Of a stretch of 64,000 bases of DNA, positions 7,115 through 60,244 are shown one piece after another (within the stretch, counting starts at the first letter, position 1; each line of letters opens with the position of its first letter). Origin of the DNA: Sedimentisphaerales bacterium (lineage in GTDB: Bacteria; Planctomycetota; Phycisphaerae; Sedimentisphaerales; UBA12454); the NCBI GenBank assembly GCA_016930635.1, contig JAFGGI010000015.1, positions 1 through 64,000 on the forward strand. The letters are read 5' to 3'. Both the position numbers and the translations under genes were made by a program. The notes under the pieces are model-generated. The model was not told the origin of the DNA, ran no database searches, and saw nothing but the letters and a program-made list of their open reading frames with translations.

Positions 7115-8455
7115 GTGTTCTCAAAAATACTTATAGCTAACAGAGGCGAAATAGCACTGCGGATAATTCGAGCCTGCAAGGAGCTGGGCGTCGAGTCGGT
7201 CGTTGTTTATTCCGAGGCAGACAGAGGCAGTTCCTATATCGAACTTGCTGATGAGGCTATTTGTATCGGGCCTGCGAGTCCTGCGCAAAGTTATCTTAAT
7301 ATTCCAGCTATTATAAGTGCCGCGGAAGTTACAGATGTCGAAGCGATCCATCCGGGTTATGGCTTTTTGGCGGAGAACGCACACTTTGCAGAGATATGCA
7401 ATGATTGCGGTATAACTTTTATTGGGCCAAGACCTGAGTCGATGAAACTTCTGGGTGATAAAGTCGCGGCGAGAGAACTTGTCAAGAAAGCTCATGTCCC
7501 TGTTGTGCCGGGCTCGGAAGGAAAGCTTAAAGATGAGGAAGAAGCGATAAAACTCGCCAATAAGATCGGCTATCCGGTGATAATAAAGGCAGCGGCGGGC
7601 GGAGGCGGCAGGGGGATGCGTGTTGCGCATAATGATATTAGTCTGCGAGGTGCGTTTGCCACCGCCAAGACCGAAGCCCATGCAGCTTTTAAGGATGATG
7701 CTATCTACCTGGAAAAATATATAGTTGACCCGAGGCATGTGGAGGTGCAGGTTGTCGCTGACAAGGCAGGGAATACGCTGCATTTTTATGAGCGCGACTG
7801 TTCGATACAGAGGCGACATCAGAAACTTATTGAAGAATCGCCTTGCCCGGTTATCGATGAGCGAATTCGTGAGGAGTTGTGCAGGGCGGCGATCAAAGTG
7901 GTAAAGCAGGCTAAGTATGAAAATGCCGCGACGGTCGAGTTTCTTTTGGATAAAGGTAAGAATTTTTATTTTATCGAAGTCAATACGAGGATACAGGTTG
8001 AACATCCGGTTAGTGAGATGGTTACCGGCCACGATCTGATAAAGATGCAGCTTCAGGTCGCAAGCGGACAGAATATTAAATTAAAACAGAGGGATATCAA
8101 GCATAAAGGTGTTGCGATAGAGTGCAGGATTAATGCCGAAGATACGGACCGTAATTTTGCGCCGTCGCCGGGCAAGATAAAAAAGTTCCTTCTGCCCGGC
8201 GGGATGGGCGTAAGGGTCGATACTCATCTGTTCCAGGATGCGGTTGTTACGCCTTATTACGATTCGATGATAGCAAAGCTTATCGTGCACCGGCCGACAA
8301 GGAGCGAGGCGATAACCACGATGAAGAGGGCACTTAGAGAGTTTCGGATAGAACCGATAAAGACAACCATCGGCGTCTGTGAAAAGATCCTGTCACACAA
8401 TATGTATCTTCAAAATAAAGTCGATACAAGCTTCATCGAACAGCATATCGGATAG
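7115..8455 (+). CDS. accC: biotin carboxylase subunit of acetyl-CoA carboxylase
   Basis: A 446-residue ATP-grasp enzyme that carboxylates the biotin on AccB using bicarbonate and ATP. The N-terminal biotin carboxylase domain begins [16 protein letters not shown]. The ATP-grasp glycine loop is [13 protein letters not shown] (about residues 159-171), and the catalytic region has [18 protein letters not shown] and [16 protein letters not shown]-terminal biotin carboxylase domain ([11 protein letters not shown] to the end) completes it. Length is normal. The start is GTG at 7115, with AAGGA at 7104-7108. It is the second gene of accBC. Confidence 0.97.
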
Positions 8456-8598
8456 TTATCAGTTATCGGTTATCGGTTTGTTTAAACGCTGAATCTTTTT
8501 TGTTTATGTTTTTTCACCGGCATAGTTAAACTCATCTTTGTTATCGAGACAGGTACTTTTAGAGGGTCGATTTAATTATTGTTCTGTTAAAGGGAATA

Positions 8599-8997
8599 AT
8601 GATTAAGTATTTGAAGCCAACAAGGCTCAAAATCATAGGGATGGTTATAGTTTTGGCATCGATCTGGTGCGCAGATATACTTGAAGATGTCATTACAGAT
8701 CCCCTTACCAGAAATATCTCCCCTGAATTCCATAACATTCTTGAAGATGCTAAAAAACAGCTTGGTGAATCAAATGAATTCCGGGACATCGTTAAAAGCG
8801 TTGACAAACAGATTGATGAATCAGAAGGTAATGAAGAGACAATCTATGTCAAAGTAGGTATTGCGGTAATCCTTGCTAAGATAGTTAGTAAGGGATTTGT
8901 TTCATATCTATGTGCATGTGTTATCATAGGATTAGCAGAGAGGAAGAAATCACAGAACAAGATTCATGATGAGATTGCTTCGCTTTGCTCGCAATGA
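8599..8997 (+). CDS. membrane-associated protein, unknown function, C-terminus in a repeat
   Basis: A 132-residue protein with an N-terminal hydrophobic helix (about 11-25), an acidic central segment (EFHNILEDAKKQLGESNEF, KQIDESEGNEE) and a second hydrophobic segment near 83-111. No family is recognised. The last nine codons (DEIASLCSQ and stop) fall in a dispersed GAGATTGCTTCG...GCAATGAC repeat at 8971-8998, so the native C-terminus may have been replaced by repeat insertion. It stands alone between accC and the converging lysA. The start ATG at 8599 is reasonable, but its ribosome site is weak. Confidence 0.55.
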   Translation: MIKYLKPTRLKIIGMVIVLASIWCADILEDVITDPLTRNISPEFHNILEDAKKQLGESNEFRDIVKSVDKQIDESEGNEETIYVKVGIAVILAKIVSKGFVSYLCACVIIGLAERKKSQNKIHDEIASLCSQ

Positions 8998-8998
8998 C
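8971..8998 (+). repeat. dispersed GATTGCTTCG...GCAATGAC repeat, short copy
   Basis: The sequence GAGATTGCTTCG, CTTTGCTCGCAATGAC is a half-copy of the element seen in longer form at 33277-33368. It contains the stop codon of the hypothetical gene to its left. Directly after it (9010-9029) lies another palindrome, ATTCCCGATCAGGTCGGGAAT. Confidence 0.65.
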
Positions 8999-9065
8999 GG
9001 TGACATAGATTCCCGATCAGGTCGGGAATGACAAAGGAAATCTTGGCGTTGTTCAGAATGACAAT

Positions 9066-9089
9066 GCCCCCCGGCACAGGTCCGGGGGC
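9066..9089. terminator. GC-rich hairpin between convergent genes
   Basis: CCCCCGG, a short loop (CACAGGT) and CCGGGGG form a strong 7-bp stem between the convergent gene at 8599-8997 and lysA, followed on the plus strand by an AT-rich run (AAACATTTTATTTTT). It may end transcription from the left, or be another interspersed palindrome. Confidence 0.5.
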
Positions 9090-9097
9090 TAAACATT

Positions 9098-10378
9098 TTA
9101 TTTTTCCAGTGTAATCATATCCTCGTAGGTTTGGCGTTTGCGGATGACTTTGAAGTTTTTGCCATCGACGAGTACCTCGGGTGGGGTGGGTCTTGCGTTA
9201 TAGTTACTTGCCATTGTAAAGCCATACGCGCCCGCGGTGAAAATCGCAAGCAGATCATTTCGATTTACCGGGGGAATGGCGCGGTCTTTGGCGAAGAAAT
9301 CAGAGGCTTCGCAGATCGGGCCGACAACATCTACGGATTCCAGGCCCTTTAAACCAATTTCTTCGGTTCGTTTGACGTTGGCATATTTTTCGTCCACCTT
9401 TGCGGGCCAAATGAAATGGAAGGCATCGTATAAAGGCGGCCTGATAAGGTCGTTCATACCCGCATCGACGATGACGAATTTCTTTTTGCCGCTTTGCTTG
9501 AGATATAAAACCTTTGTAAGTAGTATCCCTGCGTTTGCGATGATGCTTTTGCCGGGCTCTAATATCAGGGTTAGGTCTTTATCTTTCAGCAGGGGCACGA
9601 TTCCTTCGGCATATTGGGCGGCAGAAGGGACGGTATCACTTTGATAGTCGGCGCCGTATCCGCCTCCTAAATCGAGGGCTTCGATGGTAAAGCCTTTTTC
9701 TCTTAGAGAATCGATTAACGGCAGGATCTTTTCGACGGCCTGGCAGTAGGGGGCGATAGTCTTTCCGCCTGAACCGAGGTGGACATGGATGGCGCACAGG
9801 TTGACGAATTTACTTTTGCCTGCGTATTGCTCGAAGATGCTTTGGGCGCGTTCGATATCTACGCCGAACTTTGTTTCTTTTTTGCCGGTGGTTATAAATG
9901 TGTGTGTCTGCGGGTCGACGTCGGGATTTACACGAAGGGCAGCCTTTGTTTGTTTGCCGGTCTTTTCGGCAAGAGCGATAAGATTTTCAAGCTCGGCTTC
10001 AGATTCGATATTGAAATAACCGATGCCTGCTTTTAGTGCTGCGATGATTTCTTCATCTGTTTTGCCGACGCCTGCGTAGACGACTTTTTTCATGTCACCT
10101 TTGGCTTTTTGGGCGCGGAAAAGTTCTCCGCCGCTGACGATATCAAAGCCGCTGCCGTTTTCAGCGAGGATTTTCAGGATGTTTATATTGCCGCAGGCCT
10201 TTACCGAATAGCATATGATAGTGTTAAGCTCGGCGTAGGAATTTTTTATCTTGTTGAAGTGGTCGAGTATCGTGGCCTTGCTGTAGATATAAGCAGGGGT
10301 GCCGACCTTTTGAGCGATCTGGTCGATACTGACGTCTTCGGCGAATAATTTTCCTTCTTTGTAGTTAAAAGAATCCAT
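9098..10378 (-). CDS. lysA: diaminopimelate decarboxylase
   Basis: A 426-residue PLP enzyme that converts meso-diaminopimelate to L-lysine, the last step of lysine synthesis. It has the alanine-racemase-like barrel with PLP lysine in YSVKACGN (Lys60), HVHLGSGG, the ALDLGGGYG phosphate loop, LEPGKSIIANAG and the C-terminal GPICEASDFFAKDR and GAYGFTMASNYN blocks that include the substrate-binding Cys-Glu pair. Length is normal. It begins 10 nt after the hypB stop, so it appears to be the last gene of the hyp operon, an unusual pairing. A GC-rich hairpin lies just downstream. Confidence 0.96.
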   Translation of the reverse strand: MDSFNYKEGKLFAEDVSIDQIAQKVGTPAYIYSKATILDHFNKIKNSYAELNTIICYSVKACGNINILKILAENGSGFDIVSGGELFRAQKAKGDMKKVVYAGVGKTDEEIIAALKAGIGYFNIESEAELENLIALAEKTGKQTKAALRVNPDVDPQTHTFITTGKKETKFGVDIERAQSIFEQYAGKSKFVNLCAIHVHLGSGGKTIAPYCQAVEKILPLIDSLREKGFTIEALDLGGGYGADYQSDTVPSAAQYAEGIVPLLKDKDLTLILEPGKSIIANAGILLTKVLYLKQSGKKKFVIVDAGMNDLIRPPLYDAFHFIWPAKVDEKYANVKRTEEIGLKGLESVDVVGPICEASDFFAKDRAIPPVNRNDLLAIFTAGAYGFTMASNYNARPTPPEVLVDGKNFKVIRKRQTYEDMITLEK

Positions 10379-10388
10379 ATTTATCCTT

Positions 10389-11033
10389 TTATTTTTTTGT
10401 TTTTGTGAGCCAGTTTAACCAATCTTCGAAACCATCGCCGGTTTTAGCAGATATTTCAAATATTTTCAAATCTTTCTTCAGCTTCAAGGCGTCTTTTTTA
10501 ATCCTGTTTACGTCAAAATCGAGATGCTCCAAAAGATCAATTTTATTTATCAAAAGCACATCGGCTTTTGCAAAAGCCTTTGGATATTTGGCGCATTTTT
10601 CATCACCTTCGGGGACGGAAACCAGGACGACTCTTTTTTCCTCGCCGAGGTCGAAATCGGAAGGGCAGACAAGGTTGCCGACATTTTCTATTATGATGAT
10701 ATCAATTTGGTCAATATTTAGCGTATGTATTGCGTTTGTGACTTGGGCTGCGCTTAGATGGCAGGCGCCTTTGGTTTCTATTTGGATGGCCTGGGCGCCG
10801 GTTGCACGGATCCTTTCCGCATCGAGTTGAGTCTGGAGGTCGCCTTCGATGACGGCGATGTTAACTTTGCCTTTTAACATATTGATCGTTTTTTCAAGTG
10901 TTGTAGTTTTGCCGCTTCCGGGTGAGGAAATCATATTGATACAGAGGATGTTTTTATCTTTGAGGAATTTGCGATTGGCAGCGGCGCAATCTTCATTCTT
11001 TGCGAGTATTTTCTTATTTATTTTCAGTTTCAT
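10389..11033 (-). CDS. hypB: hydrogenase nickel incorporation GTPase HypB
   Basis: A 214-residue SIMIBI GTPase that with HypA delivers nickel to [NiFe]-hydrogenase. The P-loop is SSPGSGKTT (about 36-44). The metal site GACHLSAAQV holds the conserved adjacent Cys-His, followed by IIENVGNLVCPSDFDLG and the guanine-specificity motif NKID. The N-terminus lacks the His-rich nickel store found in some HypB proteins. It starts 2 nt after hypA ends. No hydrogenase structural subunits lie in the window, so the client enzyme must be encoded elsewhere. Confidence 0.96.
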   Translation of the reverse strand: MKLKINKKILAKNEDCAAANRKFLKDKNILCINMISSPGSGKTTTLEKTINMLKGKVNIAVIEGDLQTQLDAERIRATGAQAIQIETKGACHLSAAQVTNAIHTLNIDQIDIIIIENVGNLVCPSDFDLGEEKRVVLVSVPEGDEKCAKYPKAFAKADVLLINKIDLLEHLDFDVNRIKKDALKLKKDLKIFEISAKTGDGFEDWLNWLTKTKK

Positions 11034-11035
11034 CT

Positions 11036-11380
11036 TTAATCTTCTTCAAATTCTATTTCTTCCAGCAGCAGCGGGGCATCTTCGCCGAGTGTGCAGTCAC
11101 TTTTGCCGCATTTGGGACAGTTAGGATTATACAGGTCAAACTCGAATTCGCCAGAGCAGTTTTTGCAGGTTGCTTTCAATGGTATGTGTTTTATTTCGAG
11201 TTTTGCACCCTGACAGATGGTATCGGCGGTTGCTGCTTCAAAGGCGAACTGCATTACTTCATCGTTGAGTGCGTTTATCTGGCCGCAGCTTACAAGGACA
11301 CGGGTAACTTTGCCGGGCTGGTTTTTGGCCTCAGCCAGGATGGAGTTGACAATATCATGTGCTACGGCAGATTCGTGCAT
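11036..11380 (-). CDS. hypA: hydrogenase nickel metallochaperone HypA
   Basis: A nickel-binding chaperone that works with HypB. The N-terminal MHE motif supplies the nickel ligands, so ATG at 11380 (MHESAVAHDIV) is the right start, not the in-frame TTG six bases earlier. The C-terminal zinc ribbon has CKNC and CPKC. Length is 114 residues, typical of the family. The ATG overlaps the hypE stop (TGATG) and GAGGA lies just upstream, indicating translational coupling. Confidence 0.95.
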   Translation of the reverse strand: MHESAVAHDIVNSILAEAKNQPGKVTRVLVSCGQINALNDEVMQFAFEAATADTICQGAKLEIKHIPLKATCKNCSGEFEFDLYNPNCPKCGKSDCTLGEDAPLLLEEIEFEED

Positions 11381-49629: not shown

Positions 49630-49651
49630 ATTTCATCGCTGATTTTCCAAA

Positions 49652-49677
49652 AGCCCCCGCATATCGGGGGCTTTTTT
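49652..49677 (+). terminator. intrinsic terminator of the SIS gene
   Basis: AGCCCCCG, CATAT loop, CGGGGGCT, then TTTTTT: a classical Rho-independent terminator. Confidence 0.95.
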
Positions 49678-49702
49678 ATGCGATAAAACAGGATATTTTT
49701 AT

Positions 49703-49731
49703 TTGATAAAATCGATAATTCCTGATATACT
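49703..49731 (+). promoter_or_regulatory. promoter of ATPase/CvpA-like module 1
   Basis: TTGATA (49703-49708), a 17-nt spacer and TATACT (49726-49731). The first ten bases, TTGATAAAAT, recur in the promoter of the duplicated module at 52092. Confidence 0.7.
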
Positions 49732-49788
49732 AAATACTTGGTAGATATTCTTTAACTGCTGTTTTTAGCAGTCAGGAGATTTAAGAAT

Positions 49789-51351
49789 ATGCAATTATCT
49801 GACATAGAGTTATTTTTCAATCCTCTGAGGGTCGTTTTTCTGATTTTCTGGTTTTTCCTGTGTATGTATCTGGTTCAGCGCTTTGAGTACAGCCCGATAA
49901 TTCCTGATAAAATAAGGGCAAGTGTGAATGTTCTGATATTAATTTTCGGGCCGATTGTCCTTTTTATTTTTCTCGTACTTGAAGTGTTCCAGAAAGTACA
50001 GGGCTATGGGATGCCTTTTTTTGAGGCGATTAAAAGAGCCCTGAGCAGAGCAAATGAAATTGTGGATCTCAGTCATGTTACCGGTGCACGCGGCAAGGAA
50101 TCTATAGTTTTAGTTGATTTGATGGGCAGAAATCTATTTGAAGTATATGGCAGCGACAAAGAACACGAGAACGATAAATATACAGTTGAAGATACTCTTA
50201 AGCATACCCAGAGCGTAATAGCAGGCGCTGTTGAACGTCTTGCCAGTGATATTCTAATAGACCCTGTCAGCAGTGATAATTATGTGGTCAGATATAGAAT
50301 CGATGGTATGTTGAGAACCATTGAAGATGTGGATTTCAAACGCTGTATGGCAATAGTTAACAGCATCAAGGCTATTTCCGGTATGGATATTGCCGAACGC
50401 CGTCGCCCGCAGGATGGTGCTTTTATAGCCAGGACTTCCCAGAACGATATTTCATTCAGAGTGGCAAGTGCCGGTGTTTTAAATGGTGAAAAGCTTTCAA
50501 TAAGAATCCTTAATCAGCCCGTTATGCAATTGACGCTTGAAGATCTTGGTATGAGTGAAAAATACCAGAAACTTGCAAAAGAAAAGAGCAATCATCAGTC
50601 TGGAATGATTCTTGTCTGCGGTCCGACCGGCAGCGGCAAGAGTACCACTATGCAGGCAATGCTCAGAGAGCTGGATTTCTTCACGCGCAACGTAATAACT
50701 ATCGAAGATCCGATAGAATATGTTTTACCCAAAGCCAGTCAGATAGAGATAAATACCAAGGCCGGCATAACGTTTGCGAAAACACTGCGAAGTGTTCTCC
50801 GTCAGGACCCTGATGTGATATTTGTAGGTGAAATAAGAGATGAAGAGACCGCTTCGATAGCTTTAGGTGCTGCTCAAACAGGTCATCTTGTCTTCGCAAC
50901 AATTCACAGCAGCAGCAATGCGGCATCTATTGTTCGTCTGACAGATCTTGGTATAAAACCGCTTCTTATTACATCAGCCATCAGTTTGATCATTTCTCAA
51001 AGACTTATACGCAGGCTGTGTCCTAAATGCAAAATGTCAGTAAAACTTGATGATACCCAGATGGCAAAACTCCAAAGCAAAAAAGTGGATACAAGTAAAA
51101 TGATGCGAGCGATCGGCTGTGGTTACTGCGGCGAGACGGGATATAAAGGCAGAATAGCTATCTTTGACATGATGATTCTTAATGATAGTGATAAAGCCAA
51201 GATTCTTTCGTCTGATTTTTCAGTTAGCAATTTTAAGAATGCCGGTGATGAGCAGTATAGGGCAAATCTGAAAAAACAGGCGATGAAACTTGCGCTGACA
51301 GGTGTGACAAGTATCGAAGAAGTAAAGAGAGTAACTTCCAATCTTGGATAA
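49789..51351 (+). CDS. membrane-anchored GspE/PilB-type ATPase, module 1
   Basis: A 520-residue secretion-type ATPase. Unlike classical GspE it opens with two transmembrane helices (about 12-32 and 44-66) in place of the soluble N-terminal domain. The GspE core follows: DIAERRRPQDGAF (arginine fingers), Walker A GPTGSGKST (about 280-288), Asp box and Walker B RQDPDVIFVGEIRDEETA, His box GHLVFATIHSSSN, and a zinc-binding pair CPKC/CGYC near 420-455. All catalytic motifs are intact. It powers a pseudopilus or pilus-like machine or a derived system. A CvpA-like gene follows after 6 nt. Confidence 0.9.
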   Translation: MQLSDIELFFNPLRVVFLIFWFFLCMYLVQRFEYSPIIPDKIRASVNVLILIFGPIVLFIFLVLEVFQKVQGYGMPFFEAIKRALSRANEIVDLSHVTGARGKESIVLVDLMGRNLFEVYGSDKEHENDKYTVEDTLKHTQSVIAGAVERLASDILIDPVSSDNYVVRYRIDGMLRTIEDVDFKRCMAIVNSIKAISGMDIAERRRPQDGAFIARTSQNDISFRVASAGVLNGEKLSIRILNQPVMQLTLEDLGMSEKYQKLAKEKSNHQSGMILVCGPTGSGKSTTMQAMLRELDFFTRNVITIEDPIEYVLPKASQIEINTKAGITFAKTLRSVLRQDPDVIFVGEIRDEETASIALGAAQTGHLVFATIHSSSNAASIVRLTDLGIKPLLITSAISLIISQRLIRRLCPKCKMSVKLDDTQMAKLQSKKVDTSKMMRAIGCGYCGETGYKGRIAIFDMMILNDSDKAKILSSDFSVSNFKNAGDEQYRANLKKQAMKLALTGVTSIEEVKRVTSNLG

Positions 51352-51357
51352 CAAAAT

Positions 51358-52008
51358 ATGATGTTCAACCTGATGATATTAGTTGGTCTTATTTTTGCTC
51401 TTCTGGGCTATAAAAAAGCCTGGTATCCCAGCTGGGCCTTTTTGTTCAACATCCTGATTTCTGTCTATATAAGTATAATGGCTGTCCCGCAAATTGTTGA
51501 TAATATCCCGGATATACGGAAATATTTGGGTGATTTTTCCTATGCGGCAGGGATGTTCACAGCGGCTGTTGTTATATTTGCTGTCACACATTTTCTGACA
51601 GTGAGATTTTTAATATCAGGCTATCGCGCATCTTTTCCGAAATTGTTTAACATCGCCGGTGCCGCAGTTCTCGGATTTTTCGCGGGACTGATATTAGCAG
51701 GCTTTTTGCTTTTTCTGGTAACAATACTTCCACTGGAGGATTGCCCGGCTGCTGAGTATCTTACAAAAATCGACCAAACTTCCACCGAACCAGGGATCGT
51801 TGTACGCCACAGCTGTAATGTCATACACAGTCTTTCCTTTCATGCCTATACGGTAGGGGTTGACAGACAAATCAGTAAAATCAGGGATGATTGGAGAGGT
51901 CCTGAGATTAAGCCGGAACCGGCAGATCCAAATTCTGACCCGAACAGTATAGAGGTTATCAATAAATTTGTAGTTGAAGCTAATGAAAGTGAATTCCGAA
52001 GAAAATAA
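51358..52008 (+). CDS. CvpA-like membrane protein, module 1
   Basis: A 216-residue protein with about four transmembrane helices (about 3-20, 25-45, 63-86 and 99-127) and a soluble C-terminal tail rich in Pro, Asp and Glu (about 180-205). GYKKAWYPSWAFLFNI is strictly conserved with its duplicate at 53734. The helix pattern resembles CvpA (colicin V production) proteins, but assignment is tentative. Its gene lies 6 nt after the ATPase, so they likely act together at the inner membrane. Confidence 0.65.
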   Translation: MMFNLMILVGLIFALLGYKKAWYPSWAFLFNILISVYISIMAVPQIVDNIPDIRKYLGDFSYAAGMFTAAVVIFAVTHFLTVRFLISGYRASFPKLFNIAGAAVLGFFAGLILAGFLLFLVTILPLEDCPAAEYLTKIDQTSTEPGIVVRHSCNVIHSLSFHAYTVGVDRQISKIRDDWRGPEIKPEPADPNSDPNSIEVINKFVVEANESEFRRK

Positions 52009-52091
52009 TCCTTCAAAGAGGGGACCTGTCATACTTTGCAATATTAATAAATATGCGGGTTTTATGGATAATGAAATAAAAGTGTTTTTTC

Positions 52092-52120
52092 TTGATAAAA
52101 TCCCGATTTATTGCTATGTT
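52092..52120 (+). promoter_or_regulatory. promoter of ATPase/CvpA-like module 2
   Basis: TTGATA (52092-52097), 17-nt spacer, TATGTT (52115-52120). It shares the TTGATAAAATC start with the module 1 promoter, so the duplication included regulatory DNA. Confidence 0.55.
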
Positions 52121-52170
52121 TAAACTGTCCTATAGTCGCTTATATCTCGGCACGCAGGAGTTTTAGAAAT

Positions 52171-53724
52171 ATGGAATTATGTGGTTTAGAGTTATTCTAC
52201 AGTCCCTTTAGAGTCATTTTTCTTGTTTTGTGGTTCTATCTGTGTATGTATCTGGTTCAGCGCTTTGAGTTTAGCCCGATCATTCCTGAAAAGTTAAAAA
52301 TGGGCGGCATAAATGTCCTGATACTTATTTTCGGTCCTATTGTTATTTTCATTTTTGTCATACTCGACTCATTCGAAAAGGTCCAGCAGTACGGCATGCC
52401 CTTTTTAGAAGCTTTCAAAAGAGCGATAGGCAGAGCACGCGAGGTCGTGGATATCAGCTATCTTGCCGGTGCCAGGGGTAAACATGCTGTTCTTATAGTG
52501 GACGCATTAGGCAGAAATCTTTCTGAAGTCTATGGAGATGCAGAACGCAACAAAGATGACAGAGAGACTATTGAACATACCCAGAATATAATAGCAATTG
52601 CTATCGAGCAGCTTGCCAGTGATATAATAATAGAGCCCACAGGCAATGATAAATATATAGTACGATATAAAATCGATGGAACATTGAGAGATATTGAGGA
52701 TGTGGAAAACAGGCGCTGCGCGGAAATCATTAACAGCATCAAGGCTATTTCCAGTATGGATATTGCCGAGCATGGCCCGCAGGAAGGTGCTTTTGTGGGC
52801 AGGACCCCAGGAAATGACATTTCCTTTCGTGTGACAAGCAGGCCAATTAGAGAAAGAGAAAAAATCTTAATACGGATTCTTAATCAGGCTATCAGAAAGT
52901 TCACACTTGCCGACATTGGTATGGATGAAAAATATCAGCAGGTCGTCAGAGAAGCTGTTTCCAAAAAATCGGGAATGATTATTGTTTGCGGTTCTTCCGG
53001 AAGCGGAAAGAGTACTACTATACAGGCTATGCTTATGGAACTGGACTTTACATCACGTAATGTGGTAACTATCGAAAATCCGCTGGAGTATATTTTGCCG
53101 GGAGTTAACCAGATAGAAATTAAGGCCAGTGCCGGTATGACAGTTGAGAAGACACTGAAAAGTGTTTTAACCCAGAGTCCTGACGTGATATGTGTTGGTG
53201 AAATAGCGAATAAAGAAATTGCTTCCCTGGCTCTCGGAGCTTCTCAGGCAGGCCATCTTGTTTTTGCAACGCTGAATAGTGATAACAGTGCCACTGCAAT
53301 TATTCGTTTGATAAAGTTCGGTATCAAGCCGATCCTGATTTCTTCGGCAATTGATATGATTATCTCACAAAAGCTTGTTCGCAGACTCTGTCCGCAATGT
53401 AAGACAGTTGCGGTTCTTGATGAAGCTCAGCTTGAAAAACTCAAAGATAAAGAGGTGAATATCAATAAAATAATGCAATCGACAGGCTGCGGCTATTGCG
53501 GTGATACGGGATATAAAGGCAAAACGGGAGTCTTTGACATAATGATTCACGGTGATGATGTTAAGGCTAAGATACTTTCGTCTAATTTTTCGGTAAGTAA
53601 ATTTGAGAATACCGGCAATGAGCAGCACAAGATAAACTTGAAAAAACAGGCGATAAGGCTTGCTCTTAACGGAGTTACGAGCCTGGAGGAAATAAAAAGA
53701 ATGACCCAGGACCTTGAGCGATAA
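52171..53724 (+). CDS. degenerate membrane-anchored GspE-type ATPase, module 2
   Basis: About 517 residues, a close paralogue of the 49789 ATPase with the same two N-terminal helices. ATG at 52171 (MELCGLELFYSPF) aligns with its start; 20 upstream codons are excluded. Walker A is kept (GSSGSGKST), but other sites are changed: AERRRPQDGAF became AEHGPQEGAF (arginines lost), RQDPDV became TQSPDV, GEIRDEETA became GEIANKEIA, and the His box GHLVFATIHS became GHLVFATLNS. The zinc pairs remain. It may bind ATP without hydrolysing it, as a regulatory or structural partner of the first ATPase. Confidence 0.88.
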   Translation: MELCGLELFYSPFRVIFLVLWFYLCMYLVQRFEFSPIIPEKLKMGGINVLILIFGPIVIFIFVILDSFEKVQQYGMPFLEAFKRAIGRAREVVDISYLAGARGKHAVLIVDALGRNLSEVYGDAERNKDDRETIEHTQNIIAIAIEQLASDIIIEPTGNDKYIVRYKIDGTLRDIEDVENRRCAEIINSIKAISSMDIAEHGPQEGAFVGRTPGNDISFRVTSRPIREREKILIRILNQAIRKFTLADIGMDEKYQQVVREAVSKKSGMIIVCGSSGSGKSTTIQAMLMELDFTSRNVVTIENPLEYILPGVNQIEIKASAGMTVEKTLKSVLTQSPDVICVGEIANKEIASLALGASQAGHLVFATLNSDNSATAIIRLIKFGIKPILISSAIDMIISQKLVRRLCPQCKTVAVLDEAQLEKLKDKEVNINKIMQSTGCGYCGDTGYKGKTGVFDIMIHGDDVKAKILSSNFSVSKFENTGNEQHKINLKKQAIRLALNGVTSLEEIKRMTQDLER

Positions 53725-53733
53725 GGATCAAAA

Positions 53734-54324
53734 ATGGTTAAGCTGATAGTAGTTATAATTGGATTTGTTTTTGCCTTCTTAGGTTACAAAAAAGCCTGGT
53801 ACCCAAGCTGGGCCTTTCTGTTCAATATCCTCGTTTCTCTTTATATAGGCATAATGACTGCTCCGCAAATTGTGGATAAGATACCGGTAATCAGGCAATA
53901 TATTGGTGATTATTCTTACTCAGCAGGCATTCTCGTATTAACCGCTATTGTTTTTGCAATAGTTCAGTTCCTGTCTGTCAGGTTTTTGATAACCGGCTAC
54001 CGTGCCTCTTTTCCGAAAATTGTAAATATTGCCGGTGCTGCCTTTCTCGGATTCATGGCCGGTTTAACAATAGGAGGATTCTTATTTTTCCTGATATATA
54101 TAACCCCTCTGCCGAAATATCAGGTTGTAGGCAAATTCCTCGCAGCAGATGACCCGAATTCTCCACAGGGCAGTAGTTTTGTGCGAAGCAGATGTAATTT
54201 CATCCACGGCGTCTCTTTGCATGCCCAGACTATAGGGGTTGAAAAACAGATAAACAAGATTTTAACCGGCTGGAAAGGCACAGGAACCCAGCCGGGCAAA
54301 AAACCTGCCGAGACTATTAAATAG
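53734..54324 (+). CDS. CvpA-like membrane protein, module 2
   Basis: A 196-residue paralogue of the 51358 product with the same helices and GYKKAWYPSWAFLFNILVSL near the start, FLSVRFLITGYRASFPKI in the middle and GVSLHAQTIGVEKQINKI near the end. The Asp/Pro tail of the first copy is shorter here. AAGGA lies before the ATG, 9 nt after the degenerate ATPase gene. Confidence 0.65.
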   Translation: MVKLIVVIIGFVFAFLGYKKAWYPSWAFLFNILVSLYIGIMTAPQIVDKIPVIRQYIGDYSYSAGILVLTAIVFAIVQFLSVRFLITGYRASFPKIVNIAGAAFLGFMAGLTIGGFLFFLIYITPLPKYQVVGKFLAADDPNSPQGSSFVRSRCNFIHGVSLHAQTIGVEKQINKILTGWKGTGTQPGKKPAETIK

Positions 54325-54588: not shown

Positions 54589-55320
54589 ATGATAGATGAA
54601 ATTTTCTTACAGCGGTATCTTGAAGCGCTTTTAGCAGGTGACAGAAGGCGGTGCAGAGAGGTGATTGAGGATATTCTTCATCACAACAGTGCCTCCATAA
54701 CCGGCGTTTACAGCGATGTGATCTGGCCGATAATGGTAGAGATAGATATGCTCTATCGTGCTGAAAGGATCACCTCTGCCCAGGAGCACCTTGCATCCCG
54801 CATCAATCGTACTATTGTCGACCAGCTCCAGAACAAACTTCCCCGCCAGCCGAGAACGGAAAGGAAGGTTGTCATTTGCAGCTCTCTTCGGGAGATAAGC
54901 GAGCTCGGCAGTCAGATTATAGCCGATATGTTTGAAAGTGCCGGCTGGGATGTAAGATTTCTCGGCGGCGGTCTCAGCAATGATGATATTCTCTCGTATG
55001 TCCATCAGTTCTGCCCGGAGGTGCTTGTGATTTACGGTACCGAGCCGGCCGAAACACCTCAGATCAGGAGTATAATTGACCGCATAAAGGAAGTAAACGC
55101 CTATCCCGATATGAGAATAATGCTGTCGGGCGGCATCTTCTCCAGGGCTGAAGGTCTGTGGGAAGAGATCGGCGCAGACCTTTTTGCGCCTAATGCCATA
55201 GAGGCCGTACAGCTTGCTTCGGACGAAAATCAGACACTGTGCAGACCTGTAAGGACTATAAATCAAAGAAAGCGAAAACAGCTTGCCGCCGTTGCGGAAG
55301 ATAGAGAAGACGAAGAATAA
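54589..55320 (+). CDS. B12-binding-fold (cobalamin-dependent-like) regulatory protein
   Basis: A 243-residue soluble protein: an N-terminal helical cap (about 1-85, with AQEHLASRINRTIVDQL, like the ExHxxS caps of CarH and methionine synthase) and a Rossmann-like B12-binding domain (about 92-215). The cobalt-coordinating DxHxxG motif is not evident: the matching loop reads SSLREISELGSQI, without His. The following GWDVRFLGGGLSNDDI and LSGGIF match the fold. It may bind cobalamin differently, or not at all. GGAG precedes the ATG; a terminator follows. The partner is unknown. Confidence 0.75.
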   Translation: MIDEIFLQRYLEALLAGDRRRCREVIEDILHHNSASITGVYSDVIWPIMVEIDMLYRAERITSAQEHLASRINRTIVDQLQNKLPRQPRTERKVVICSSLREISELGSQIIADMFESAGWDVRFLGGGLSNDDILSYVHQFCPEVLVIYGTEPAETPQIRSIIDRIKEVNAYPDMRIMLSGGIFSRAEGLWEEIGADLFAPNAIEAVQLASDENQTLCRPVRTINQRKRKQLAAVAEDREDEE

Positions 55321-57184: not shown

Positions 57185-60100
57185 ATGCGTAATAATACCC
57201 CGTTAGAGAAAACCGCGAACGTTGATTCGCATTATAGGTCGGCAGTCGTTAGAGAACGGAGTTCTCTAACGGGGTATATACTTTTTCTGCTGATAATTTT
57301 ATCAACTCTATGCAGGGTCTTTGCTGTTGAGCCGAGCGGTGCAAGCTTGTTCGGGGCGGATGATTTGTATCTCAACGGCGAGGTAATAAAAACCTTCCAG
57401 TCGCCTACCGGGGAAAATGTTCTCATTTTTGAAGACGGTTTCGAGCTTTTGATCGGCGACAATAAACTCACCAGCGACGAGGCCGTAGTCTGGCTCAAAA
57501 GCCGGGTCACTGAATATCTCGGCGATGTAAGTGTCGAATATAAAATTTCTGTTTATCTCCAGGGCAAAGTGAAAGTCGATAGAGGCCCCGGTGCTATGAC
57601 CAGCGGACTCGATATTGATGAAACAACTGCCGAGGGCCTTGAAGCAATGGTGGCTGAATTTATTGTGGCCGGCGAAATTTTTGCAACAGCAGAAAAAAGA
57701 ATTGTTGAAGACCTTCGCACTACACAGCTTTACCGCAACGGACTTGTTGCGACAGGCAGAGTTAAGCTTGTACCGGTACCGGCACAAGAAACACCTGCGG
57801 TTGTTGTAGAAGCGGAGAAGCCCAACATTCTTGAAAGAATTTTCCCGTCTGAACCGAAAGATCAGGCAGCGGGGTTTGAACCTTTACCTGTGCCCGAACC
57901 TGGTGTACCGCGATTCCAGTATCCTGTCAACATCAGCGCAATGGGTACAGAACAGGTACAGTATGCAAAGGAAACTCTGCCTGACGGCAGTGTTGTCGAT
58001 ATGATTTTGAACAGGTTTTATCTGTGGCAAAAACAGGATGAATCTGGAGGTCTGCTTGAGTTCCAGGCTGATTCTGCTGTTTTGTTTTATGCCCAGGGAC
58101 AGGGCGACTCATCCGGCCTTGCCAAAAGCAGCAGTATAAAAGCGATTTATATCCGCGGCGACATAATCATGACCGAAGGCCAGCGGACGATACGTGCCGA
58201 TGAGATTTATTATGATTTCCAGAAAAAGCAGTGCCTTGCTGTAAATGCTGTTATGAGGCACTATGAGCCTTCCAGGGGTATCCCCATATACTTAAGGGCG
58301 GTAAAGCTCAGGCAGGTTACGGAAAATACATTCCACGGCAATGATATAATACTTTCAAGCAGCGAATTCTATATCCCCCGACTGGCATTGACTGCGTCGG
58401 AAGTTGTTATTACAGATAGGGTTACCGTTGACCAGCGGTCCGGCAGGCTCGGCCCTCACAGCTATGATACGCTGATGGAAGATGTTAAGCTCAAGCTTGA
58501 CAACAGAACGGTATTTTACTGGCCCAGGCTACGCGGTGATTTTGTAAAACCTGATATACCGCTTAAAGCACTGGAGATTAGCAAAGATGGTACTTTCGGC
58601 ACATCAATCGAATCCGAATGGTATCTTGCCAGGATTCTTGGTCTTAAAGAACCTGAAGGTGTAGATTCATCTCTTATGGTGGACTACTATTCTAAACGCG
58701 GCACAGCAGCCGGTGTTGACATAACATATACAAAAGAAGATTACTTCGGTGGTATTAACGGTTACATAATTAAAGACAGAGGTGAGGACGACCTCAGCAG
58801 GAACAGACAGGATATTGAGCCTGAAAGAGGTTTAAGGGGTATGCTCAATTTTAGTCACAGGCATTTTCTGCCGTATAATTGGCAACTTACCCTGGGCTAC
58901 AGTTATCTTTCTGACGAGACTTATCTGGAATCTTTCCACCGTGAGCAGTACTTTGCCGGCAGGGGGCAGGAAACCTATATGCATTTGAAATGGCTCAAGG
59001 ATAACCAGGGCGTTTCAATACTCGGCAAATGGCGGATAAACGACTTTGCCGACCAGCTCGAAGAACTTCCTTCAATACAATACCATTTGGCAGGAAAGTC
59101 TCTGTTTAACGACAGGTTTACATTATACAGCAATAATACTTTAAGCAGGCTTCGTCAGCGGGTCGGAGAAAATCATATACTTAATGTTTCTAATGAGATG
59201 TTCCTGTTCGGTTCGTCAAGAACTGAATTGGATATGCCGATTAAATTCGGCCCCAGTGCCAAAATTGTGCCTTATATAGCCGGCACATTTGGCCATGACG
59301 AAAGAAACGGCTTTAACCGTAACAGTTCTATCGGCCTTAGCACAGCATTTGGCCAAGAGAATATCTTTATCGGTGAAATTGGTGCACGTGCCTCGACTCA
59401 GTACTGGAAATTATATAAAAATATGCGTTCTAAATTCTGGGATATCAACGGCCTTCGCCATATTGTAAAGCCTTATGCAACTGCCGCGGCATTTTTTGAA
59501 AGTGATGATGTGGTTGACCAGAGAGATATCTTTACCTTTGGTCTTTTGCAGAGGTGGCAGACTAAACGCGGTATCGGAGACAGGGAAAGGATCCTCGACT
59601 GGATGAGGCTTAATATAGAATACACGATGGTTGAAAATGAGTCCGAAGAACCGGTCCGGGCTGACAAAACTATCTGGAACAATCCGTTTGTACCGCTTGG
59701 TGTTACTCTGGCACCGGGTATTTTCAATGGCGATTTAAGCCAGTACAGAAGATTCGAGCTTTTCGGACCCCAGAGAGACAGTATTAATGCTGATTATATC
59801 TGGCGGATCAGTGACACAATGGCGTTTTTAAGTGACTTTAATTACGATATGAAGAACAAGGATATTGAGCAGTACAATATAGGCATATCCCGCCTTTGCT
59901 GGCCAAACCTGAGTTATTATGTCGGCATTAGGTATCTAAGGAGCGTAGAAATTGATAATGAGAAGGGCTCACAGGCCCTTACGTTTTCTGCTACCTATAA
60001 GATCAATCCCAGATATACCCTTACATTTGCCAACCAGTATGATTTCAAACGTGATGGAAGGATAACCAACCAGATATCGCTTATCAGGCAGTATCACAGG

Positions 60101-60244
60101 CTTTTTTACGGTTTTACCTACACTATGGACGAATCACTTGACAGGCAGACGATAGTTTTTAGTATATGGCCACAGGGAATAGGCGAGATGGGCACAGGCT
60201 CGAGAATATTCGAAAGCGAAGAGTCTGAGCCGGACCGTAATTAG
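57185..60244 (+). CDS. lptD: LPS-assembly outer-membrane protein LptD (OstA)
   Basis: A 1019-residue outer-membrane protein. After a long 30-residue N-region comes a hydrophobic export signal (about 31-50, YILFLLIILSTLCRVFA), an OstA-like beta-jellyroll region (about 240-450), then a large beta-barrel with LptD features (about 470-1000), such as SKRGTAAGVDITYTKEDYFG and HIVKPYATAAAFF. LptD inserts lipopolysaccharide into the outer leaflet. No start codon exists after residue 1 before the signal helix, so the N-region must come from the palindromic repeat at 57195-57277. The export complex (lptA/B/C/F/G) is not nearby; only an lptB relic lies at 1015. Confidence 0.85.
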   Translation: MRNNTPLEKTANVDSHYRSAVVRERSSLTGYILFLLIILSTLCRVFAVEPSGASLFGADDLYLNGEVIKTFQSPTGENVLIFEDGFELLIGDNKLTSDEAVVWLKSRVTEYLGDVSVEYKISVYLQGKVKVDRGPGAMTSGLDIDETTAEGLEAMVAEFIVAGEIFATAEKRIVEDLRTTQLYRNGLVATGRVKLVPVPAQETPAVVVEAEKPNILERIFPSEPKDQAAGFEPLPVPEPGVPRFQYPVNISAMGTEQVQYAKETLPDGSVVDMILNRFYLWQKQDESGGLLEFQADSAVLFYAQGQGDSSGLAKSSSIKAIYIRGDIIMTEGQRTIRADEIYYDFQKKQCLAVNAVMRHYEPSRGIPIYLRAVKLRQVTENTFHGNDIILSSSEFYIPRLALTASEVVITDRVTVDQRSGRLGPHSYDTLMEDVKLKLDNRTVFYWPRLRGDFVKPDIPLKALEISKDGTFGTSIESEWYLARILGLKEPEGVDSSLMVDYYSKRGTAAGVDITYTKEDYFGGINGYIIKDRGEDDLSRNRQDIEPERGLRGMLNFSHRHFLPYNWQLTLGYSYLSDETYLESFHREQYFAGRGQETYMHLKWLKDNQGVSILGKWRINDFADQLEELPSIQYHLAGKSLFNDRFTLYSNNTLSRLRQRVGENHILNVSNEMFLFGSSRTELDMPIKFGPSAKIVPYIAGTFGHDERNGFNRNSSIGLSTAFGQENIFIGEIGARASTQYWKLYKNMRSKFWDINGLRHIVKPYATAAAFFESDDVVDQRDIFTFGLLQRWQTKRGIGDRERILDWMRLNIEYTMVENESEEPVRADKTIWNNPFVPLGVTLAPGIFNGDLSQYRRFELFGPQRDSINADYIWRISDTMAFLSDFNYDMKNKDIEQYNIGISRLCWPNLSYYVGIRYLRSVEIDNEKGSQALTFSATYKINPRYTLTFANQYDFKRDGRITNQISLIRQYHRLFYGFTYTMDESLDRQTIVFSIWPQGIGEMGTGSRIFESEESEPDRN
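57195..57277. repeat. CCCCGTTAGAGAA palindromic repeat inside the lptD reading frame
   Basis: ATACCCCGTTAGAGAA (57195-57210) and TTCTCTAACGGGGTAT (57262-57277) are perfect 16-bp inverted ends. An extra CGTTAGAGAAC-GGA-GTTCTCTAACG hairpin overlaps the right end. The element is in frame with lptD and encodes residues of about 4-31. Its ends match the copy at 56644. Confidence 0.85.

Follow-up and report, generated by a model that had tools for sequence, protein, structure and literature searches.

Tandem units of a membrane-anchored GspE-family ATPase and a CvpA-like protein in a Sedimentisphaerales genome, with an altered catalytic core in the second ATPase

In the accepted view, GspE/PilB motors are cytosolic rings that dock on GspF/PilC platforms, and CvpA is a widespread family whose function is, to our knowledge, poorly understood. 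Another relevant case is that of PilT and PilU, paralogous PilT-family ATPases that are often encoded side by side, one dependent on the other; PilU retains its catalytic motifs, and hetero-hexamers have been argued against (PMC6762196). Here, we describe a locus that can be compared with each of these systems in a Sedimentisphaerales bacterium of the phylum Planctomycetota (assembly GCA_016930635.1). The window that we analyzed is a 64,000-nucleotide stretch, positions 1 to 64,000 of the forward strand of contig JAFGGI010000015.1, and the locus is a head-to-tail duplication, at 49703-54324, of a 2.39-kb unit made up of a promoter-like site, an ATPase gene, and a CvpA-like gene, as follows.

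49650..49679, + strand: terminator-like hairpin AAAGCCCCCGCATATCGGGGGCTTTTTTAT, 3' of the SIS-domain gene (read off the sequence; not in the consensus-scan list)
49703..49731, + strand: promoter-like site of unit 1, TTGATA-17-TATACT with an extended TG (10/12 match), inside a 33-nt stretch that recurs before unit 2
49789..51351, + strand: copy 1 of the membrane-anchored GspE/PilB-type ATPase, 520 amino acids, active-site residues intact (PF00437)
51358..52008, + strand: copy 1 of the CvpA-like (PF02674-related) four-helix membrane protein, 216 amino acids (from hydropathy, family profile, and AlphaFold2 model)
52092..52120, + strand: promoter-like site of unit 2, TTGATA-17-TATGTT with an extended TG (9/12 match), in the same relative place as that of unit 1
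52171..53724, + strand: copy 2 of the membrane-anchored GspE/PilB-type ATPase, 517 amino acids, core altered (PF00437)
53734..54324, + strand: copy 2 of the CvpA-like membrane protein, 196 amino acids (from homology to the copy 1 partner)

The two units are 70 to 80% identical in DNA, and their matching points are spaced 2370 to 2389 nucleotides start to start, bearing out the original prediction, made from the letters of the sequence, of two promoter-ATPase-membrane protein units in tandem. At the protein level, the ATPases are 60% identical over 520 amino acids and the CvpA-like proteins 54% identical; the likely start of the copy 2 ATPase is the ATG at 52171, which has AGGAG upstream, rather than the start of the longer open frame. 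The hairpin that precedes unit 1 suggests that the unit has its own transcription. Matches of the type TTGATA-N17-TATRYT are no more numerous in this region than in shuffled sequence.

The single unit is conserved across the order. Across the order, 98 of 161 genomes carry an orthologue of the ATPase, as do 52 of the 66 high-quality ones, the named relatives being Phycisphaerae and Sedimentisphaerales metagenome-assembled genomes; each has one copy, except for the window's genome, which has two; what is conserved order-wide is thus the unit and not the pair, a matter that the original prediction had left to be checked. The nearest synteny-matched relative (G005) has the gene order aconitase, LOG-like, unknown, HisD, SIS, ATPase, CvpA-like, and B12-binding, with a single unit between the same neighbors, so the duplication is lineage specific. 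Copies 1 and 2 are sisters both in the ATPase tree (support 99/96) and in a tree of concatenated ATPase and CvpA-like proteins (100/99), in which the alternative grouping of copy 1 with its G005 counterpart is rejected (approximately unbiased [AU] test, p-AU of 0.00055); the duplication is therefore younger than the divergence of this lineage from its closest relatives in the sample. An old duplication followed by loss in relatives was rejected on the concatenated tree, with the ATPase alone being borderline.

Both ATPases are clear members of the T2SSE family PF00437 (359.2 bits for copy 1 and 291.5 bits for copy 2, against a gathering score of 24.9), and the solved structures closest to them are those of Thermus PilF, Vibrio GspE, and Geobacter PilB. 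These affinities, together with the several GspE/PilB-GspF loci in the genome, would suit additional extension or secretion ATPases that serve an ordinary type II secretion system (T2SS) or type IV pilus whose genes lie elsewhere, but much else about the proteins makes this highly improbable. Copy 1 stays under the equivalog cutoffs for GspE (TIGR02533; 380 versus 630.25 bits) and PilB (TIGR02538; 379 versus 675.65 bits), as does copy 2 (323 and 313 bits), and two transmembrane (TM) helices stand in place of the soluble N1 domain. Such a membrane anchor had been part of the original prediction, and the two N-terminal hydrophobic segments are indeed present in both copies and in most orthologues, one or both falling below threshold in some. 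Searches for this N-terminal domain in 392 genomes of the phylum, with a single sequence and with a profile, recovered none outside the order, although these searches do not pick up the N-termini encoded by the sister operon described below, which are more distant. A tetra-Cys motif (C411/C414/C444/C447 in copy 1) has all four of its cysteines kept in copy 2.

The genomic context of the ATPases also departs from that of GspE/PilB. Their sole conserved neighbor is the CvpA-like gene, which directly follows the ATPase in 20 of 20 sampled loci; across the same loci, no other general neighbor, GspF/PilC platform gene included, lies beside the unit. All five GspF/PilC-like genes of the window's genome adjoin other GspE/PilB genes, and a search of this genome for a free-standing platform gene found none. 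The original prediction had envisaged a dedicated pseudopilus or secretion system, possibly with a platform gene elsewhere, and in this it went beyond a conserved neighborhood that is limited to the two-gene ATPase-CvpA unit: because no platform gene recurs beside the unit and the GspF/PilC genes are all paired elsewhere, a pilus or pseudopilus function for the locus is a guess without support. With equivalog cutoffs and platform linkage both failing, and with the ATPases falling in a separate clade (see below), we rejected their identity as ordinary T2SS or type IV pilus ATPases. Relatives were also sought on viral contigs, where none were found, and a mobile or viral origin was set aside.

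The CvpA-like proteins share with the CvpA/Colicin V production family (PF02674) the presence of four TM helices, which by hydropathy lie within the first ~130 residues, and 17 of the 21 members of the CvpA-like family match its profile at E<0.01 (best E, 2.6e-10). The two proteins of the window, however, do not reach the curated gathering score (23.4 and 14.7 bits versus 29.3 bits), and their linkage to a GspE-type ATPase is without precedent in the literature that we searched, in which queries on a CvpA-GspE link, on planctomycete GspE/PilT work, and on pseudo-ATPase secretion motors yielded nothing relevant. An AlphaFold2 model of the copy 1 protein (predicted local distance difference test [pLDDT] score of 67) has long helices at residues 2-20, 25-49, 51-86, and 95-123, and this model matched no PDB fold at E<=0.001. 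One CvpA-like gene, that of genome G007 (L094, 9531-10354; the same locus in L051), is apparently broken in two in this assembly, by either a frameshift or a stop.

What sets the second ATPase apart is its core. We compared copy 2 with 92 sequences (91 orthologues plus copy 1) at 94 near-invariant core positions, numbered as in copy 1, and found that copy 2 deviates at 25 and keeps 69. Among the other 92 sequences, 69 have no departure, 13 have one, and 7 have two, the rest having 3, 4, and 7, the last of these in the most distant orthologue sampled. The changes in copy 2 include R205H, R206G, D209E, P279S, T280S, D307N, R338T, D340S, R350A, D351N, T364A, and H373N. All 11 of the key residues R205, D209, P279, T280, D307, R338, D340, R350, D351, T364, and H373 are invariant in 92/92 sequences, which, within this family, goes against the possibility, raised with the original prediction, that the altered residues might be altered in active homologues as well.

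Residue roles established for Geobacter PilB can be mapped onto the window ATPases by a constant offset of 47. In that protein, E357 is the Mg-binding Glu, E395 the catalytic Glu, and R271 and R286 the arginine fingers, while H420 contacts the gamma-phosphate and T327 and T411 form an inter-subunit contact (PMC5424180). The equivalents of E395, E357, R271, R286, H413, and R455 are kept in copy 2, and those of T327, T411, and H420 are changed. In terms of the window proteins, K284 of Walker A, the Mg-binding E310, the catalytic E348, and the arginine fingers R224 and R239 are present in both copies, and copy 2 also keeps E306, H366, and R408; of the two histidines of the His box, both present in copy 1, copy 2 retains the first (H366) and has lost the second (H373N). 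R350, replaced by Ala in copy 2, corresponds to PilT R206, for which a natural R206S substitution is found in the hyperpiliated Vibrio cholerae strain MO10 (PMC6762196).

The original prediction thus held in its retained Walker A and its altered arginines of the AERRRPQDG loop, but it overstated the loss of acids from the Asp box and GEIRD: the changes here are D307N, R338T, D340S, R350A, D351N, and H373N, and the catalytic Glu of GEI and the Glu residues of IENPLE are kept, as is the first histidine of the His box. Because the second His-box histidine, the Arg/Asp network, and the inter-subunit threonines are changed, copy 2 can fairly be read as catalytically impaired. The two copies resemble PilT and PilU in being paired paralogous motors, but copy 2 has lost residues of the catalytic network (25 core departures, with the His box and the R and D of GEIRD affected), and the pair further differs in its membrane anchors and CvpA-like partners.

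Changes of this kind could also mark a duplicate that is decaying toward a pseudogene under relaxed constraint, and the branch leading to copy 2 in the ATPase tree is indeed long (0.49 versus 0.18 for copy 1), the changes cluster in what is normally the most constrained part of the protein, and the pair is known from a single genome. The divergence, however, is uneven. Identity to the G005 orthologue over the N2 plus C-terminal domain (CTD) core is 79 to 82% for copy 1 and 59 to 61% for copy 2, compared with 58 and 55% for the membrane domain, 68 and 62% for the C-terminal part, and 43 and 44% for the CvpA-like partners, so that the partner of copy 2 evolves no faster and its TM domain diverges at a normal rate. 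The acceleration in copy 2 is thus local, limited to the N2+CTD core. Its 517-codon frame is intact and is accompanied by a ribosome-binding site and a promoter-like site; it contains 0 stops, where neutral simulations at similar divergence gave a mean of 17 and a minimum of 8; and the 69 core positions that it keeps include those fully conserved in the superfamily. Branch ratios of nonsynonymous to synonymous substitution (dN/dS) computed from pairwise values (copy 1, ~0.15; copy 2, ~0.21) point to a frame under purifying selection, although with dS high (above 1.3, near saturation) they are only approximate. We therefore consider decay improbable and rejected a pseudogene as the likeliest reading of copy 2, which agrees with the functional status originally predicted for it. 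The pattern of constraint reads as the signature of a protein retained for its anchor, interfaces, and partner, with its catalytic core freed, and would represent a conversion toward a pseudo-enzyme rather than a dead gene.

A second module in the same genome has a comparable makeup. On contig C59 (L165), positions 7412-11302 encode a PilT-like ATPase, a membrane-anchored GspE-like protein, and a CvpA-like protein, an operon of which we found no description in the literature searched. The P-loop of its GspE-like protein is destroyed and lacks the P-loop Lys ('GPKKNGVTST'); the PilT-like ATPase has the Walker B sequence 'LIGDMANKE' and has lost the first histidine of the His box. The residues 'ANKE' follow Walker B in copy 2 as well as in this PilT-like ATPase, but nearby codons mostly differ, and we took the resemblance as coincidence and not as gene conversion. 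Of the 161 genomes of the order, 148 contain a match to the GspE-like protein, and Planctomycetia also have matches, at ~30% identity. The sister-operon GspE lacks the P-loop Lys in all 12 members of the order that were examined and also in one further representative of the class; the residue is present in 6/6 members examined from another class, judged from kinship to be Planctomycetia. In most members of the order, the PilT-like protein encoded upstream is intact. Partial decay of its motifs (e.g., 'TLLST', 'GELQEKE', 'ISEMRD', and 'IAEIRD') was seen in L208 (G005), L228 (G009), L227 (G012), L225 (G003), and L241/L242 (G021 and G022).

The sister operon and the window units are also linked by descent. 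In a tree of the ATPase cores, the window ATPases, the sister-operon GspE, and the other-class proteins form one clade (100/99), separate from a small outgroup sample of four ordinary GspE/PilB proteins encoded in the window's genome. Both modules have a membrane-anchored GspE-type protein followed by a four-TM CvpA-like protein, and in both an impaired subunit has a neighbor that is mostly intact; they differ in that the sister operon usually has a PilT-like gene upstream and, in the order members sampled, a GspE without the P-loop Lys, whereas in the window no PilT-like gene accompanies the unit and copy 1 is intact. In G007 (L051), the ATPase-CvpA unit and the PilT-like/GspE-like operon lie within ~5 kb (at about 7.2-10 kb and 2-5 kb), and their closeness suggests a functional link. 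Judged by these sequences, the window pair is one instance of a wider membrane-anchored, CvpA-linked clade of the GspE family with an order-wide pseudo-GspE operon, and the best-supported reading is that members of this clade are membrane-anchored motors that act together with CvpA-like proteins and that the pairing of an unimpaired with an altered motor arose more than once among them, the window tandem being a recent instance.

A two-gene unit of membrane-anchored GspE-family ATPase and CvpA-like protein was tandemly duplicated in the window's lineage, and we propose that the second ATPase became pseudo-enzyme-like, keeping its anchor, P-loop Lys, Mg-binding and catalytic Glu, and arginine fingers while the network of His-box, Arg, and Asp residues that surrounds the nucleotide and the subunit interface was lost. 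Copy 2 would then be a structural or regulatory, slow or non-hydrolyzing partner to copy 1 and both CvpA-like proteins in one membrane-embedded, ATP-driven machine. That copies 1 and 2 are partners in one machine is quite possible, and we put it forward tentatively as the likeliest reading; the heteromeric motor of the original prediction, with copy 2 in the same ring as copy 1, is a hypothesis. Reduced ATPase activity of copy 2, its physical association, and a role of CvpA as membrane partner are what we infer. Somewhat less likely, in our judgment, is that copy 2 and its own CvpA-like partner form a separate complex, a slow ATPase or ATP-sensing scaffold in a new role, unmixed with copy 1. 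Duplication of the entire unit, promoter-like site and CvpA gene included, has left each ATPase with its own partner, and retention of the catalytic Glu, the Mg-binding Glu, the P-loop Lys, and the arginine fingers is compatible with such a complex; the loss of T280, T364, and H373, however, argues against a normally cycling homohexamer, and the sister operon has its impaired GspE beside an intact ATPase.

Several observations weigh against a recent duplicate turned pseudo-enzyme. Copy 2 keeps all of the residues that are reported to be invariant throughout the PilT-like superfamily, so it may hydrolyze ATP, and its AlphaFold2 model is poor (pLDDT of 59). The AU test on the ATPase alone falls just short of rejecting the grouping of copy 1 with G005 (p of 0.0575), the dN/dS values are subject to the near-saturation given above, and the pair is seen in one genome, that of the only species of its genus in the sample.

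Directly 3' of the units, the window encodes a B12-binding domain protein (54589-55320) that is 77 to 78% conserved beside the unit in G005 and G003, and farther downstream lies an LptD-like outer-membrane protein (57185-60244; PF04453, 26 bits).

More broadly, and more doubtfully, the two modules may represent a previously undescribed inner-membrane, ATP-driven machine of the Planctomycetota whose membrane-anchored GspE-family motor acts directly on a CvpA-like protein, in place of the usual GspF platform. One of its motor subunits would have been turned into a pseudo-ATPase repeatedly, throughout the order in the PilT-like/GspE/CvpA operon and, recently, in copy 2. A conserved, membrane-anchored, CvpA-tied planctomycete clade that is repeatedly paired with altered paralogues would place CvpA in a mechanistic context and would offer a natural system for the role of a non-hydrolyzing subunit in a hexameric secretion-type motor, of which the window tandem would be a young example whose ancestral single-copy state is present in relatives.
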